NCBI GenBank assembly: GCA_009838515.1
Contig: VXRL01000011.1
Coordinates: 1 to 64,000 of the forward strand
From: Terriglobia bacterium
Lineage (GTDB): Bacteria; Acidobacteriota; Terriglobia; Bryobacterales; UBA6623
DNA length: 64,000 nt
Reading direction: 5' to 3'
Position numbers and translations under genes: made by a program. The notes below the pieces were generated by a model. The model saw only the letters and a list, made by a program, of their open reading frames with translations. It ran no database searches and was not told the origin of the DNA. Shown piece by piece: positions 28,611-56,462 of the stretch. How positions within the stretch are numbered: the stretch's first letter is position 1; the number at the start of each line of letters is the position of its first letter.

Positions 28611-29960
28611 ATGCCGCGCCCAATCCATGTAGTCGGAGCAGGGCTGGCGGGCTCCGAGGCTGCCGTCCAGATCGCCCGCCATGGTGTGCCGTGCGTGCTG
28701 CACGAGATGCGCCCGGGCAAGCGGACCCCGGCTCACCAGACCGATGCCCTGGGCGAGTTGGTCTGCAGCAACTCCCTCAAGACCGAGACACAGGGCAGCG
28801 CTCCGTGGCTTCTGAAGGAGGAGTTGCGCCGCATGGGTGCGATGTCGATGCGGGTCGCGGCCGAGGTGCGGATTCCGGGCGGGACCGCTCTGACGGTCGA
28901 TCGTGGCTTGTTCGCGCGAGGTGTGACCGATGCGGTGGAATCGGAGCCGTTGATCAAGATCGAGCGCGGCGAGGTCACCGATCTCGCGACTGACAGCGAC
29001 AAGATCTGGATCATCGCTACGGGGCCTCTGACGAGCGACGCCTTGGCGGAGGCGATCGCCGAGCGCACGGGGAACGATCGCCTGTACTTCTACGACGCGA
29101 TCAGCCCGATCGTCGACGCGGAAACGATCGATATGTCGGTCGCCTATCGCGGCTCGCGCTACGGGCACTCTATCGATGGCAGCGATGACTACGTGAACTG
29201 CCCGCTCACCAAAGAGCAATACGAGCGGTTCCTGGCCGCCCTGCTGGCTGCCGAGCAGCACCATTCCAGCGATTTTGACAATCCCAACTACTTCGAGGGC
29301 TGCTTGCCGATTGAAGAGATTGCTCGACGGGGTGCGGACACGCTGCGTTTCGGGCCGATGAAGCCCGTTGGCTTGCGCGACCCGAGGACAGGGCGGGGCG
29401 CCTACGCCGTTGTGCAGCTCCGCCAGGAGGACGCCCGGGCCGGCTCGTACAACGTCGTGGGATTCCAAAACCATCTTAAGTACGGCGAGCAGAAGCGCTT
29501 GCTTCGCATGATTCCCGGCTTGGAGCGCGCCGAGTTCTTGCGCTTCGGGCAGATTCATCGCAACACATATATCAACGCGCCCGCCCTGCTGCTTCCGACG
29601 CTCCAGTGGAAGCAGCACGCCAACATCCTGTTCGCAGGCCAGATCTCGGGCGTCGAGGGGTATGTGGAGTCCATAGCGACGGGCCTGATGGCCGGTTGGA
29701 ACGCTGTTCGCCTGTCCCTCGGGCAAGCCTTGCTGGAATGGCCGCCCGCCACCGCCCACGGATCCCTCTGCCGCTACATTTCCGGTGCCGACCCGGACAA
29801 CTACCAGCCGGCAAACATCACGTTCGACCTGTTGCCTCCACCGTCAGCTGAGCTGAAACGGAAGTTTCGAAAGCAGAAGCGGGAGCGGCGCCGGCAGCAG
29901 TGCGCGCTGGGGCTAGCCGCGCTTGACGAGTTTCTCAATGTCCAGCAAGCAGCAGCCTGA
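28611..29960 (+). CDS. trmFO: Methylenetetrahydrofolate-tRNA-(uracil-5-)-methyltransferase
   Basis: A 449-residue folate/FAD-dependent enzyme making T54 (m5U) in tRNA. Seen: the FAD fold VVGAGLAGSEAA, the conserved Cys in LVCSNSLKTE and the second Cys in YFEGCLPIEE, and FAGQISGVEGYVES and GLMAGWNA near the C terminus, all typical of TrmFO rather than MnmG. Its end overlaps the xerC start by 23 bases. The trmFO-xerC order matches the gid-codV arrangement in Firmicutes. The large minus-strand frame over the same bases is a shadow. Confidence 0.95.
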   Translation: MPRPIHVVGAGLAGSEAAVQIARHGVPCVLHEMRPGKRTPAHQTDALGELVCSNSLKTETQGSAPWLLKEELRRMGAMSMRVAAEVRIPGGTALTVDRGLFARGVTDAVESEPLIKIERGEVTDLATDSDKIWIIATGPLTSDALAEAIAERTGNDRLYFYDAISPIVDAETIDMSVAYRGSRYGHSIDGSDDYVNCPLTKEQYERFLAALLAAEQHHSSDFDNPNYFEGCLPIEEIARRGADTLRFGPMKPVGLRDPRTGRGAYAVVQLRQEDARAGSYNVVGFQNHLKYGEQKRLLRMIPGLERAEFLRFGQIHRNTYINAPALLLPTLQWKQHANILFAGQISGVEGYVESIATGLMAGWNAVRLSLGQALLEWPPATAHGSLCRYISGADPDNYQPANITFDLLPPPSAELKRKFRKQKRERRRQQCALGLAALDEFLNVQQAAA

Positions 29961-30882
29961 CGACACCATCTCGGCGGCGGCGACGCGGTTCTTGGCGTCG
30001 TTGCGGGCACGCAACGCATCGGAGAACACGATTGCGAGCTACGGCAGGGACCTAGGCTTGTTCGTCAGCCATTTCGGTTCCGACCAAGGGCAGGCCCTAT
30101 CGGTGGGACGAGTCACGCGGCTAATGATTCGCGAGTTCATGGCCGAGGGCCGCTCGAAAGGTCTGTCACCAGCGACACTGGCGCGCCGCTTGGCGGCCCT
30201 GAGGGGCTTCTTCGACTACTTGGTTCTCGAGGAGGGCCTTCCCAACAATCCGGCCCGCAGCCTCGCGGCTCCCAAGATATCCCAGAAACTGCCTCCCGTC
30301 ATGAGCGCCGAGGATACCAATCAAATGGTCAATGCCGTGCGGTTCGACAGCGAGCGAGACCGCTTTCCAGACAAGGTCGTTCGCGACCGCCTGATCTTTG
30401 AACTGCTCTACGGTGCGGGGCTGCGTGTCAGCGAGCTCGTCGGCTTGAACCTGAACGACATCGACAGGGCCGAGCGCTGGATCGAAGTCAGAGGCAAGGG
30501 TCGCAAGGAACGCCAAGTGCCGTACGGAGTGCGAGCTGACGAAGCGCTGGAACGCTACTTGACGGTGCGGGAGCGTCTCGAGGCACCGCGCACGGAGAAG
30601 GCCTTGTTCCTGCACCGCTGGGGAGGGAAGCTACGACGCCTGACGCCTCGCAGCGTCGGATTGATCGTCAAGAAGTACGCACGCTTGCTGAGTGGCGACC
30701 CATCCCTGCATCCGCACTCGTTGCGGCACGCCTTCGCCACGCACTTGCTCTCCGAGGGAGCGGACCTGCGCGCAATCCAGGAGCTATTGGGCCACGCCAG
30801 CCTGTCGACCACGCAGAAGTACACCCAACTGTCCATGAGCGAGTTGATGAAGGTTTACGACGCGGCGCACCCGAAGGCCTAG
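29938..30882 (+). CDS. xerC: Tyrosine recombinase XerC/XerD-like
   Basis: A 314-residue tyrosine recombinase that would resolve chromosome dimers at dif. Seen: the N-terminal SAM-like core-binding domain (LARRLAALRGFFDYLV), and catalytic Arg in YGAGLRVSELVGL, Lys in VRGKGRKERQVP, HPHSLRHAFATHLL (His-x-x-Arg), LGHASLSTTQKYT with the second His and the Tyr nucleophile. All six residues are present. The ATG at 29938 is preferred; TTG at 29923 is possible. The overlap with trmFO and the housekeeping context argue that it is the cellular recombinase, not a phage integrase. Confidence 0.92.
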   Translation: MSSKQQPDDTISAAATRFLASLRARNASENTIASYGRDLGLFVSHFGSDQGQALSVGRVTRLMIREFMAEGRSKGLSPATLARRLAALRGFFDYLVLEEGLPNNPARSLAAPKISQKLPPVMSAEDTNQMVNAVRFDSERDRFPDKVVRDRLIFELLYGAGLRVSELVGLNLNDIDRAERWIEVRGKGRKERQVPYGVRADEALERYLTVRERLEAPRTEKALFLHRWGGKLRRLTPRSVGLIVKKYARLLSGDPSLHPHSLRHAFATHLLSEGADLRAIQELLGHASLSTTQKYTQLSMSELMKVYDAAHPKA

Positions 30883-30973
30883 CCTCGGCGCCAGATTTCC
30901 CGTTCCGCGCTAAAGTGGGGTGGTCAGCAGCCGGCTGGAGCGTCCGCCGAGAGCGCAGGAATTCATCGCAACA

Positions 30974-32413
30974 ATGCCGAAACGGACGCTCTTTCTCAAC
31001 CCGCCGTCGTACGAGAACTTTGACGGCGGCGCCAGTTCCCGCTGGCCCGCCACGCGGGAGATTGAATCGTACTGGTACCCGGTCTGGCTCTGCTACCCGG
31101 CCGGGATGTTGGGGGATAGCACCGTTGTCGATGCGCCTCCGCACAAGCTCAAGCCCGCCGATGTGAGGGGCTTGGCGAACTCGTACGAGTTCATGGTCCT
31201 GTTCACCTCGACTCCCGGGTTTGCCAACGACTGCGTCTTGGCAGAGTCGATGAAGGCTCTAAACCCCGACCTCGAGATCTGCTTTGTCGGACCTCACGTT
31301 GGCTCTCGCCCCGCCGAGAGCTTGCGGGCGTGTCTGGCCATAGACTTCGTGATTCGCAAGGAGTTTGACTTCCAAGTCGTTGATTTCGCGAACGGCAAGC
31401 CCTTCAGCGAGCTCGGAGGTGTCAGCTATCGAAATGGTGCCGGCGAGGCCGTGCACAACCCGGATGTGCCTCTGGTCGAGGACTTGGACGCGCTGCCTTG
31501 GGTGACACCTGTCTACAAGCGCTGCCTAGATGTGGAGCGCTATAACGTCCCCTTTCTCAAGCATCCGTACGTGTCGTTCTACACCGAGCGCGGCTGTCCT
31601 GCTCTGTGCACGTTCTGCCTTTGGCCGCAGACCATCTCGGGCCATCGCTGGCGCACGCGCTCGGCGGATGACGTGGCTGCCGAGGTGCGCTGGACGCTCG
31701 ACAACTTCCCGGACATCAACGAGATATTTTTCGATGACGATACCTTCAACATTCGCAAGGACCGCGTACTGGAGCTGTGCGCAAAGCTCAAGCCGCTAGA
31801 TTTCACTTGGTCCTGCACGTCCCGTGTCAATGTCGATTACGAGACTCTGAGGACCATGAAGGACGCAGGTTGCCGACTGCTGATCGTCGGCTACGAGTCA
31901 GGCGATCCGCAGATCCTGAAGAACATCAAGAAGGGAGCCACCGTCGAGCGGGCCCTCAAGTTCACCCGGGATGCCCACAAGGCTGGCCTGACTATCCACG
32001 GCGACTTTATCGTCGGCTTGCCGGGTGAGACACGCGAGACCATCCAACGCTCCTTGGAGTTTGCCAAGCGGCTCGACACGGAAACGATCCAAGTCTCTGT
32101 GGCGCACCCCTATCCGGGCACCTCGTTCTTCGACGAGGCCGTGGCCAACGGCTGGCTCACCGATGGCTCGATGACGGATGCAGCGGGCCACCAGGTGCCC
32201 AACATCCGCTATCCAGACCTAGACCAGAAAGAGATCCTGCAGTGGGTCGAGCGTTTCTATGACGAGTACTACTTCCGTCCGCGGGCGGCGTGGCGCATCG
32301 TCAGGAAGGCGATGTTTGATGCCAAGGAGCGCCGTCGGCTGGCGAAAGAAGCCCGCGAATACTTGGCTTTGCGAGCTAAGCGCAAGGAATACGCCCTCGA
32401 CACCCACCCCTGA
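30974..32413 (+). CDS. hpnJ: Hopanoid biosynthesis B12-binding radical SAM protein HpnJ
   Basis: A 479-residue radical-SAM enzyme. HpnJ is tied to bacteriohopanetetrol cyclitol ether formation, i.e. making the polar head group of hopanoids. Seen: an N terminus with RTLFLNPPSYENFDGG and WYPVWLCYPAGML typical of HpnJ, a cobalamin-binding-like domain, then the radical-SAM cluster site TERGCPALCTFCLWPQT (Cx3Cx2C) and IFFDDDTFNIRKDR in the core barrel. The ATG at 30974 (MPKRTLF) is chosen over an upstream frame start at 30920. No other hpn gene or squalene-hopene cyclase is in the window. Confidence 0.85.
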   Translation: MPKRTLFLNPPSYENFDGGASSRWPATREIESYWYPVWLCYPAGMLGDSTVVDAPPHKLKPADVRGLANSYEFMVLFTSTPGFANDCVLAESMKALNPDLEICFVGPHVGSRPAESLRACLAIDFVIRKEFDFQVVDFANGKPFSELGGVSYRNGAGEAVHNPDVPLVEDLDALPWVTPVYKRCLDVERYNVPFLKHPYVSFYTERGCPALCTFCLWPQTISGHRWRTRSADDVAAEVRWTLDNFPDINEIFFDDDTFNIRKDRVLELCAKLKPLDFTWSCTSRVNVDYETLRTMKDAGCRLLIVGYESGDPQILKNIKKGATVERALKFTRDAHKAGLTIHGDFIVGLPGETRETIQRSLEFAKRLDTETIQVSVAHPYPGTSFFDEAVANGWLTDGSMTDAAGHQVPNIRYPDLDQKEILQWVERFYDEYYFRPRAAWRIVRKAMFDAKERRRLAKEAREYLALRAKRKEYALDTHP

Positions 32414-32477
32414 ACGGCGGCGCGAACCCGCGATTGGATTGCCAGCTCGGCCTCGCCCGAGCCGCTGTCCGGGCATA

Positions 32478-32605
32478 GATTTCCACAACTGTGTTGGAAA
32501 ACTGACAGTGGAACTGTGGAAATCCTGTGTGTAGAGGTTGGAAACTGCTATCTAACTTACGCACAGACCAGCATTACCGAGTCTGTGCGGCGAAGCTGTG
32601 GAAAC
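32478..32605. repeat. Box module, copy 1 (TGTGGAAA boxes)
   Basis: First copy of a module of about 128 bases. Boxes seen: GATTTCCACA at 32478-32487, TTGGAAAA at 32494-32501, TGTGGAAATC at 32515-32524, TTGGAAAC at 32538-32545, TAACTT at 32553-32558 and TGTGGAAAC at 32597-32605. The first and third form a perfect 10-base inverted repeat with a 27-base loop. TTTTCCACA is the DnaA-box form reported in cyanobacteria and is one base from the E. coli box TTATCCACA, so DnaA binding is one reading. Confidence 0.75.
32561..32588. repeat. Inverted repeat GCACAGAC-N12-GTCTGTGC
   Basis: A perfect 8-base inverted repeat inside copy 1 of the module: GCACAGAC at 32561-32568 and GTCTGTGC at 32581-32588. It could form a hairpin. 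It is not followed by a T run, so it is not a classical terminator. Copy 2 has only the left arm in changed form (GCGCAGACC at 32851). Confidence 0.6.
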
Positions 32606-32750
32606 CTTGCACGCCTACTGATGGTTGGTTGGCGTAGCGGCCGCTCGCTGGAGGTCGCTGCGGCAACTCCGTGCCCTTGCCGGCACGTACCACCGCTCTG
32701 GCCTGGGCGGGCTGCCTGCCCTCGGCTAGAGTCGGGTGGTCGCGGGTCGA

Positions 32751-32877
32751 GATTTCCACACCCTAGGCAAGATTCGTGTGAAGCGGTGTGGAAAACCTGT
32801 GTGCGCCTGTTGGAAAAGACTCCGTAACTTCCATCTCTGAAACACTTCAGGCGCAGACCTAATTCAGTGTGGAAATC
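32751..32877. repeat. Box module, copy 2 (TGTGGAAA boxes)
   Basis: Second copy, 273 bases after the first. Boxes seen: GATTTCCACA at 32751-32760, TGTGGAAAA at 32787-32795, TTGGAAAA at 32810-32817, TAACTT at 32825-32830 and TGTGGAAATC at 32868-32877. Offsets from the first box core are 34, 57, 72 and 115 bases, against 35, 58, 73 and 117 in copy 1. CCTGTGTG follows the middle TGTGGAAA box in both copies. Sequence between the boxes has diverged, so the spacing looks conserved. Confidence 0.75.
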
Positions 32878-32901
32878 TTGGCGGCAGTCGCTGCGTGAGC
32901 G

Positions 32902-34764
32902 CTATGCGGTGTCGGAGGTTCCTGATGCGAAACGGTCGATCAAGAACATCACCGCTGCCACGGCCGCCAGCGATAGCCACAGGCTGTCGACCAGCGGTAT
33001 GGGAATCTCAATGCCCGTGAACAGAGTCTTCGGAATTGCGATGAGTATGCCTGCGATCGCCTCGCCGGCGATCAGTCCGGAAGCGATCAGCAGGCCCCTG
33101 TGGCGTGCTTCCTCCGAGCGCCTCTGGAGGCGCTGCGAGATCAAGCCCCCGAGGAAGATAGGCACCATCAGCGAAAGCGGCAGGTAGATGCCAACCGCGA
33201 CGGGCATCACATGCGCGCGAAAGCGGCTGCCGGAGCGCTGCAGGAAGCCGTCGAACAGGACGATACCGACCGCGATCAGCGCTCCGATCCAGACCATGTT
33301 CCACGGAATGCTGGAGTCTCCGAACAACCCCTCCGCGATCGAGGCGAAGAGCGTAGCTTGCGGTGCTAGCAAGGCATTGGGTTCGCCCGTGCCAATGCCG
33401 TAGGCCCTGTGCAGCAGCGTCAAGACCGGCGCGATGGTGAAGACGGGCACCAGAATGCCGATCAGCTGGCCGATCTGCTGTAGGCGCGGCGTTGCCCCGA
33501 CCAACTGGCCAGTCTTAAGGTCCTGCGACGTGTCTCCGGCAGTCGCGGCGGCGCAGCACACGATGCTGGCCACGCCTAGCGCGCCCAGGATTCCGGCGCT
33601 GCCGGTCATGCCCAAGATCAGCAAGATGACGGACGAGAACATCAGCGCGCAGATTGTCGTGCCCGAAATGGGATTGTTGGACGACCCCACCAAGCCGCAA
33701 ATGTAGCTTGAAACCGCCACAAAAAAGAGCGAGCTGACGAGCATCACGATTCCTGCGGTCAACGCAACCGGCACGGAGCCCGTGACGGATTGGTACAGCA
33801 CGAACGTACCGAGGGCGACCACTGCGAAGGCTGCGCCGACCAAGGAGTTGGGAAGGTCCCTGTCGGTGCGTTCGATCGATTGGCCGCTTCTTCCAACGCC
33901 GCCAAGCAGGTGGCGCACCGCCTTCGCAATTCCGCCGCGGATACTCCACATCGATGCCAGCCCGCCGACGATCATGGCCCCCACGCCCATGTAGCGGATC
34001 TGGCTGCTCCATAGCGTCCACGCCGCGTCTAGGGCAGACTGTTCGGCCACGGGGCTTAGCCAGTAGAAGATCGGAATGGCGAACAGCCAGGCGATCACGC
34101 TTCCCGCCAAGGCGGCGATGCCAATCTCGACACCGACAATCACGCCGACTCCTAGTAGCGCGACCGAGATGTCCGTGCCGCCATAGAGCACGGTGCCCCC
34201 CACCCTCCAAGCGAACTCTGCCGTGCTGCGGAAAACCGCAAGCAAGCCTACGAGCGATTTGAACACCAGTCCACCGCCAAGAGCGGACAGGATCGTGCGC
34301 ATGGGGCTGCCGCCTGACTCTCCCGCCTCAAGCACTTGGGCGCAGGCCACTCCCTCCGGATAGATCAGCTCCTTGTCCTCGACGATCAGGACCCTTCGCA
34401 GGGGGACCATGAACAGCACGCCGAGCAGGCCGCCCAGCAAGCCGATCAGGGAGACCTTCCAAAAGGAGAACTCCAGCCAAACCCCGGTGATCAGCATGGC
34501 GGGAACGGTGAAGATGATCCCCGCCGCGACCGCCTCTCCAGCCGAGGCGATGGTCTGCACGATGTTGTTCTCGCGGATCGTGCCACGCCTCAGCAGCCCG
34601 CGCAGGATGCCCATCGAAACGATAGCCGCCGGAATGCTGCCGGTCACGGTCATCCCCGCATACAGCCCGAGGTATGTGTTCGCCGCAGTGAGTACCGTGC
34701 CGATCAGCAGTCCGATGACGACCGCCCGAATGGTGAGTTCGCGAGCTGGATAGGACGGAAGCAT
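32902..34764 (-). CDS. OPT family oligopeptide transporter
   Basis: A 620-residue polytopic membrane protein of the oligopeptide transporter superfamily, which moves peptides or metal chelates into the cell. Seen: ELTIRAVVIGLLIGTVLTAA and NTYLGLYAGMTVTGSIPAAI at the N terminus, ENNIVQTIASAGEAVAAGI, ELIYPEGVACAQVLEAGE, and many later hydrophobic helices, all family signatures. The ATG at 34764 (MLPSYPARELT) is chosen; one at 34806 adds 14 residues. It is a single gene. The chelate or peptide carried cannot be told from sequence. Confidence 0.88.
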   Translation of the reverse strand: MLPSYPARELTIRAVVIGLLIGTVLTAANTYLGLYAGMTVTGSIPAAIVSMGILRGLLRRGTIRENNIVQTIASAGEAVAAGIIFTVPAMLITGVWLEFSFWKVSLIGLLGGLLGVLFMVPLRRVLIVEDKELIYPEGVACAQVLEAGESGGSPMRTILSALGGGLVFKSLVGLLAVFRSTAEFAWRVGGTVLYGGTDISVALLGVGVIVGVEIGIAALAGSVIAWLFAIPIFYWLSPVAEQSALDAAWTLWSSQIRYMGVGAMIVGGLASMWSIRGGIAKAVRHLLGGVGRSGQSIERTDRDLPNSLVGAAFAVVALGTFVLYQSVTGSVPVALTAGIVMLVSSLFFVAVSSYICGLVGSSNNPISGTTICALMFSSVILLILGMTGSAGILGALGVASIVCCAAATAGDTSQDLKTGQLVGATPRLQQIGQLIGILVPVFTIAPVLTLLHRAYGIGTGEPNALLAPQATLFASIAEGLFGDSSIPWNMVWIGALIAVGIVLFDGFLQRSGSRFRAHVMPVAVGIYLPLSLMVPIFLGGLISQRLQRRSEEARHRGLLIASGLIAGEAIAGILIAIPKTLFTGIEIPIPLVDSLWLSLAAVAAVMFLIDRFASGTSDTA

Positions 34765-34909
34765 CGGCGATCGCAAAGAGCTCGGATAAAGGGCGTACCA
34801 TATCACAGCGGTCCGCCCGTGCGGCCAGGCCGTGCGTCTCGCGTCAGACAGTGAAACGGCGCTTGGCTCGGCCCGGGCTAGGCGTTTGGCACTGGCGCCC
34901 GTGGCTGGG

Positions 34910-56042: not shown

Positions 56043-56057
56043 TGGTTAACATAATCT

Positions 56058-56462
56058 ATGTTATCAGAAATTATATTCCGGCGATTCGCGGCGGTCGGGG
56101 TCCTGCTGCTAGCGGTTGCCGCTCTTGCCTCCGCCGAAGCGATTCGCGGCACACTGGTTGCTCCAGTCGCCGGTGAGAAGCTGGAGCTAGCTCTCTCGGG
56201 CGGCGGCACGGTGGAGCTGGAACTGGACGAGGGCCTTGATCTCACCATGCGCGACCCGCAGCTGGCGAAGCGGCTGTGGGAGCTGCGCGGCCAACACCAG
56301 GACGGAAGCCGATTCGCCGTGGAGAAGATCTTCACCGTGAAGGACGGCGAGTTACATCGCGTGACGTACTACTGCGAGATCTGCCATATCACGACGCATG
56401 AGCCCGGGCCGTGCATGTGTTGCCAGGGCGACACGGACTTGCGCGAGCTTCTCGGCGAGTAG
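56058..56462 (+). CDS. Secreted small protein with C-terminal Cys cluster
   Basis: A 134-residue exported protein of unknown function. Seen: a signal peptide (AAVGVLLLAVAALASAEA), a beta-rich middle (KLELALSGGGTVELELDEG), and a C-terminal cluster CEICHITTHEPGPCMCCQG, i.e. CxxC, then nine residues, then CxCC, with two His between. This arrangement would bind a metal, perhaps zinc or iron, or a heme (CEICH is CxxCH). I do not recognise a family. It follows a perfect palindrome. Confidence 0.75.
   Translation: MLSEIIFRRFAAVGVLLLAVAALASAEAIRGTLVAPVAGEKLELALSGGGTVELELDEGLDLTMRDPQLAKRLWELRGQHQDGSRFAVEKIFTVKDGELHRVTYYCEICHITTHEPGPCMCCQGDTDLRELLGE

Follow-up and report, generated by a model that had tools for sequence, protein, structure and literature searches.

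A DnaA-box locus conserved in the terminus region of an acidobacterial genus and its likeness to E. coli DARS cores

A box cluster between hpnJ and an OPT transporter gene

The window, by which we mean the whole 64-kb stretch of DNA analysed here, contains nine copies of the word TGTGGAAA. Six of them, at 32480-32875, lie in the intergenic gap between hpnJ, which ends at 32413 on the plus strand, and a gene for an OPT family transporter, which ends at 32902 on the minus strand; the other three are singles at 1153, 18334, and 36412. A first-pass annotation of this DNA had reported six copies in ~400 bases and three elsewhere, with which our counts and positions agree exactly, and had correctly described the flanking genes as convergent. 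The features of the locus are as follows.

30920-32413, plus strand: hpnJ, left flank (TIGR03471, 743 bits)
32414-32901, no strand: intergenic gap between convergent hpnJ and OPT genes, containing the whole element (sequence, gene calls)
32479-32487, plus strand: module 1 box I, ATTTCCACA (word count; conserved in congeners)
32493-32501, minus strand: module 1 weak box II, GTTGGAAAA, head-to-head with box I and 5 bp from it (full box at the equivalent place in G004 and G009)
32515-32523, minus strand: module 1 strong box, TGTGGAAAT, 36 bp start-to-start from box I (word count, alignment)
32526-32534, minus strand: module 1 weak partner, TGTGTGTAG, 2 bp from the strong box, the 'double DnaA box' spacing (sequence, alignment)
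32597-32605, minus strand: module 1 outer box, TGTGGAAAC (word count, alignment)
32752-32760, plus strand: module 2 box I, ATTTCCACA (word count, alignment)
32787-32795, minus strand: module 2 strong box, TGTGGAAAA, 35 bp from box I (word count, alignment)
32798-32806, minus strand: module 2 weak partner, TGTGTGCGC, 2 bp from the strong box (sequence, alignment)
32868-32876, minus strand: module 2 outer box, TGTGGAAAT (word count, alignment)
32902-34806, minus strand: OPT family transporter gene, right flank (TIGR00733, 502 bits)

About one copy of TGTGGAAA is expected per 64 kb, and 100 shuffles of the window gave a mean of 0.96 and a maximum of 4. The whole genome (5.84 Mb) has 74 copies, no other 400-base stretch holds more than two, and a Poisson estimate for six copies in 396 bp anywhere in the genome is about 2e-12. 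The stretch 32479-32876 is the densest TGTGGAAA box cluster of the genome. A second pair of copies (G000:C23:34658/34758) lies within a coding frame and was taken as chance.

The two box modules proposed by the first-pass annotation were confirmed by direct repeats of 44 and 18 nucleotides, which are offset by 272-273 bp and show 73-83% identity. In both copies, a rightward box I is followed by a leftward strong box at 35-36 bp and, another 81-82 bp on, by a leftward outer box, and the gap between the opposed strong boxes is wide (26-27 bp) in the window's clade. The cluster also contains inverted repeats of 10-12 bases, in line with the 10-base repeat listed by that annotation, which had suggested a structured RNA. 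Long inverted repeats between convergent genes could indeed mark a structured RNA or a bidirectional transcription terminator, and a single-sequence RNA fold gave z = -6.0, a value that arises because the box inverted repeats and GC-rich spacers form hairpins. In a consensus fold of five relatives (a small depth), however, the covariation term was unfavourable (+5.4) and many predicted pairs were broken, no Rfam family matched, and the arms have T on the left and A on the right, the reverse of a bidirectional intrinsic terminator. We rejected the structured RNA upon the Rfam and covariation results and consider an RNA or terminator function very unlikely. A search for phage relatives of the hpnJ/OPT gap found none.

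Origin, terminus, and dif

Clustered DnaA boxes can also signal a chromosomal origin, another proposal of the first-pass annotation, but the origin of these genomes lies elsewhere. The dnaA gene is on a different contig from the box cluster, and in most congeners where the dnaA-dnaN gap was seen it carries TTTTCCACA-ATTCCACA followed by a run of CTAC repeats. The boxes of this oriC are TTTTCCACA, GTTTCCACA, and TCTTCCACA; box pairs occur together with a DnaA-trio-like CTACTACTAC run, as is expected of a basal origin. Its box words are identical to those of the cluster, but oriC has same-direction box pairs and the DnaA-trio-like run, a type of run that we did not see in the hpnJ/OPT gap sequence, and sits at the skew minimum. 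In one congener (G002, locus L042), the 700 bp downstream of dnaA are free of DnaA boxes, and oriC may be elsewhere.

The relative G009 is a single contig, with the hpnJ/OPT gap at 1.880 Mb and dnaA at 4.876 Mb. Noise in the raw GC skew of 20-kb samples made it necessary to use sampled strand-corrected third-position skew; fine mapping within 400 kb was noisy as well. Applied to this relative, the cumulative-skew check proposed by the first-pass annotation placed the minimum by dnaA and the high point at about 1.7-1.9 Mb, the region of the box cluster.

The window itself also contains a dif site.

56044-56071, minus strand: dif site, ATTTCTGATAACATAGATTATGTTAACC, intergenic (sequence match; the polarity of KOPS-like GGGNAGGG words flips here)

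In the window's contig, 11/11 GGGNAGGG words to the left of dif point right and 7/8 to its right point left, and the same flip at dif occurs in four other genera of the family. Every congener genome has one dif (G008 has one extra match with three mismatches). The window spans the replication terminus. An origin at the cluster is ruled out by the location of oriC, the skew, the KOPS polarity, and a dif only 23-33 kb away, and we give this reading virtually no chance.

The element lies 23.2 kb from dif in the window, about 23.7 kb in G010 and G006, about 25 kb in G005, 27.1 kb in G007, and 32.7 kb in G009, and is on the same side of dif in all six congeners measured (23-33 kb). No near-dif element was found within the stretches fetched from other genera of the family, and within this sample the placement is specific to the genus. 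The terminus position and a nearby xerC-like gene had raised the suspicion that the cluster is dif itself; we rejected this idea upon finding a separate canonical dif 23 kb away and another near 1.8476 Mb in G009. The gene in question (29923-30882) encodes a XerC/XerD-like tyrosine recombinase that scores 310 bits to XerC, just below cut-off, and lies 25 kb from dif and 1.6 kb from the box cluster.

Conservation and geometry of the modules

The same hpnJ/OPT gap is present in congeners with boxes at the same locus. Both modules are kept in G010, G001, G006, and G003 and are visible in G005, although the gap there is split over two contig ends; G009, G004, G007, G002, and G008 have one compact module. 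In an alignment of the five closest genomes, 49/54 strong-box columns were invariant compared to 173/417 other columns (p = 1e-12), and indels or length changes among relatives fell almost entirely outside the modules. Box I and the strong opposed box are 35-37 bp apart in every congener except G002 and G008, where the distance is 25 bp, approximately one helical turn shorter. The boxes, rather than the sequence between them, are conserved in congeners, and the gap is under selection as a DnaA-box locus in the terminus region. The alignment of relatives that the first-pass annotation had called for thus supports its argument for selection on boxes and spacing. The recognition motif of DnaA domain IV varies within the genus, being KDHSTV in the window's clade and KHHTTV in others (L001, L038, L039, L041); the clade with the altered motif is also the one with the duplicated, expanded module.

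A protein other than DnaA, such as a fork barrier or a terminus-organising or segregation factor, might use a DnaA-box-like word at this site. Such a role would suit one palindromic site per genome, placed between convergent genes on a fixed side of dif at 23-33 kb. By contrast, the box words are those of the genus's own oriC, G002 has canonical TTATCCACA in place of TTTTCCACA (a change that DnaA boxes tolerate), no mirrored box sites were found on the other side of dif, and other genera of the order have the same core 3' of hflX, as described below. We regard a different terminus protein as unlikely. Based upon the identity of the TTTTCCACA-type boxes with those in the genus's own oriC, we infer that DnaA binds them, and the cluster is most likely a DnaA-box locus that regulates DnaA.

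The geometry of the compact modules resembles that of E. coli DARS cores. In G004, G009, G007, G002, and G008, boxes I and II are head-to-head across a spacer of exactly 5 bp, and further boxes share the orientation of box II. A genome-wide search for TTTTCCACA-N5-TGTGGAAAA with at most two mismatches gave one match each in G004, G009, G007, and G008, always at the hpnJ/OPT gap. A third box in the direction of box II is 2 bp away in G002 and G008 and about one turn further than 2-3 bp in G004 and G009; the window has a weak partner at 2 bp. The compact module seems to be the ancestral-looking form. Module 1 of the window keeps the 5-bp spacer, but its box II is weak or degenerate, and module 2 is without box II.

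By our measurement, the E. coli MG1655 DARS1 core is TTATCCACT-ATTCC-TGTGGATAA-CCA-TGTGTATTA, with N5 and then N3 spacers, and the DARS2 core is TTATCCCAG-N5-TGTGGATAA, again with a 5-bp spacer. In E. coli, the AAA+ domains of DnaA can meet head-to-head on the opposed boxes I and II, which releases ADP (PMC8682772), and same-direction box pairs 2-3 bp apart are a preferred DnaA target (PMC11317965). Like DARS1 and DARS2, the compact congeners and the hflX-linked sites described below have intergenic cores with opposed boxes I and II over 5 bp and further boxes oriented like box II, and the chromosomal place is conserved, here within the genus. Unlike them, the acidobacterial locus is in another phylum, has other neighbour genes and the box form TTTTCCACA, and lies near dif rather than mid-replichore; in the window's clade, it has two modules and a degenerate box II. 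The E. coli 'double DnaA box' (PMC11317965) has counterparts in the same-direction boxes 2-3 bp apart of G002, G008, and the hflX-linked sites and in the weak TGTGTG partners of the window, but here the pair is joined to an opposed box and, in the window's clade, one partner is weak.

DARS-like cores in the order and the possible role of the locus

Allowing one mismatch, the N5 pair was found once each in 16/257 genomes of the order Bryobacterales, with no match for a reversed control; a few of these matches are inside genes and may be chance. A strict three-box core with 5- and 3-bp spacers (the third box at 3 bp) occurred in 15/257 genomes and never in the control, a count that is not fully independent as the pattern was shaped after the N5-pair matches had been seen. 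In 11 of these 15 genomes, representing seven genera, the core is directly 3' of hflX with diverged spacer sequences; these genomes (L230, L232, L234, L237, L238, and L241-L246) belong to genera other than the window's.

A matrix built solely from the 11 hflX-linked sites, leaving out E. coli sequences, gave the DARS1 core of E. coli the top score in its 3 kb (28.6 bits, 0/1000 simulations). In the DARS2 region, the sites ranked first and second (21.3 and 17.9 bits), and 0/1000 simulations reached the first. In the window's contig, module 1 was the best place in 91.5 kb, yet its 8.5 bits were reached by 33/200 simulations and are not significant, and the G009 element was not the best match in its 410 kb. 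The window module scores only 8.5 bits because module 1 has a degenerate box II and module 2 has none. By its position and its boxes, the window's copy belongs to the conserved genus locus, but taken alone it is not a strict DARS core. Among the three proposals of the first-pass annotation, a datA- or DARS-like locus is best supported; the box geometry adds new evidence for the DARS version.

Multiple observations bear on the choice between DARS-type action, the leading mechanism, and its main rival, in which DnaA binds but the locus sequesters it or promotes ATP hydrolysis, as datA does with its boxes around an IHF site, instead of ADP release. First, the window's clade has lost the strict DARS core and has six strong boxes in the densest cluster of the genome, and both its duplicated module and the wide spacing of 26-27 bp separating the opposed boxes would suit a sponge or bent complex. 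Second, six boxes near the place of lowest dosage on the chromosome would titrate little, and the ancestral-looking compact form shows DARS geometry. Third, E. coli datA resembles the genus locus in being a non-coding DnaA-box cluster away from oriC, but the strict-core matrix gives datA only 11.3 bits, and datA is near oriC and less effective at the terminus (PMC5010248), whereas the genus locus is near dif. We consider titration or a datA-like activity somewhat unlikely. E. coli datA also lies only some kilobases from hflX, which is probably a coincidence with respect to the hflX-linked cores.

By analogy with E. coli, the locus may quite plausibly work like a DARS core near the terminus, a reading that we favor tentatively. 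DnaA would bind the TTTTCCACA-type boxes; in compact congeners, two molecules would sit head-to-head over the 5-bp spacer, with more DnaA on the boxes oriented like the second, and AAA+ contact of the E. coli kind would release ADP, leaving apo-DnaA to reload with ATP. The window's clade carries a duplicate of this module, with approximately two helical turns added between the opposed strong boxes (from 14 to 35-36 bp start-to-start), and the activity of the locus may therefore have shifted. Its distance of 23-33 kb from dif means that the locus is copied when replication is all but complete, and thus whatever it does to DnaA would be doubled right before the cell divides. Both nucleotide exchange and this role in timing are what we infer. 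A search for an Hda equivalog found none, and so the ATP/ADP cycle of E. coli may not run in the same way here. Evidence against the DARS reading includes the low matrix score of the window module and the confinement of the near-dif place to the genus; in addition, the DARS sites of E. coli lie away from the terminus, and DARS2 is weaker when moved there (PMC5010248).

DARS2 cores have been reported to be conserved solely in gammaproteobacterial relatives of E. coli (PMC4245941), and our literature search found no paper on DARS in Acidobacteria. It is possible, if rather doubtful, that reactivating cores of DARS type are not a gammaproteobacterial invention and occur in Acidobacteriota both 3' of hflX in one family and next to dif in the window's genus, where they would couple the end of one round of replication to the recharging of DnaA for the next. 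The same box geometry in this phylum would mean deep conservation or convergence on a head-to-head DnaA arrangement, the DnaA-recharging step may be far older than thought, and DnaA reactivation would become testable outside gammaproteobacteria. The terminus-linked copy offers a direct hypothesis of how termination might be tied to the following initiation in a lineage where no Hda equivalog has been recognised.

A different arrangement was seen in L223 and L224, from another genus, where tandem boxes (TGTGGAAAA-N3-TGTG(N)5-N3-TGTGGAAAT) lie beside genes for a replication-protein-like product and a HAD phosphatase. This region also carries cgtatatctcggtgcgcc repeats and is possibly a plasmid-type origin.
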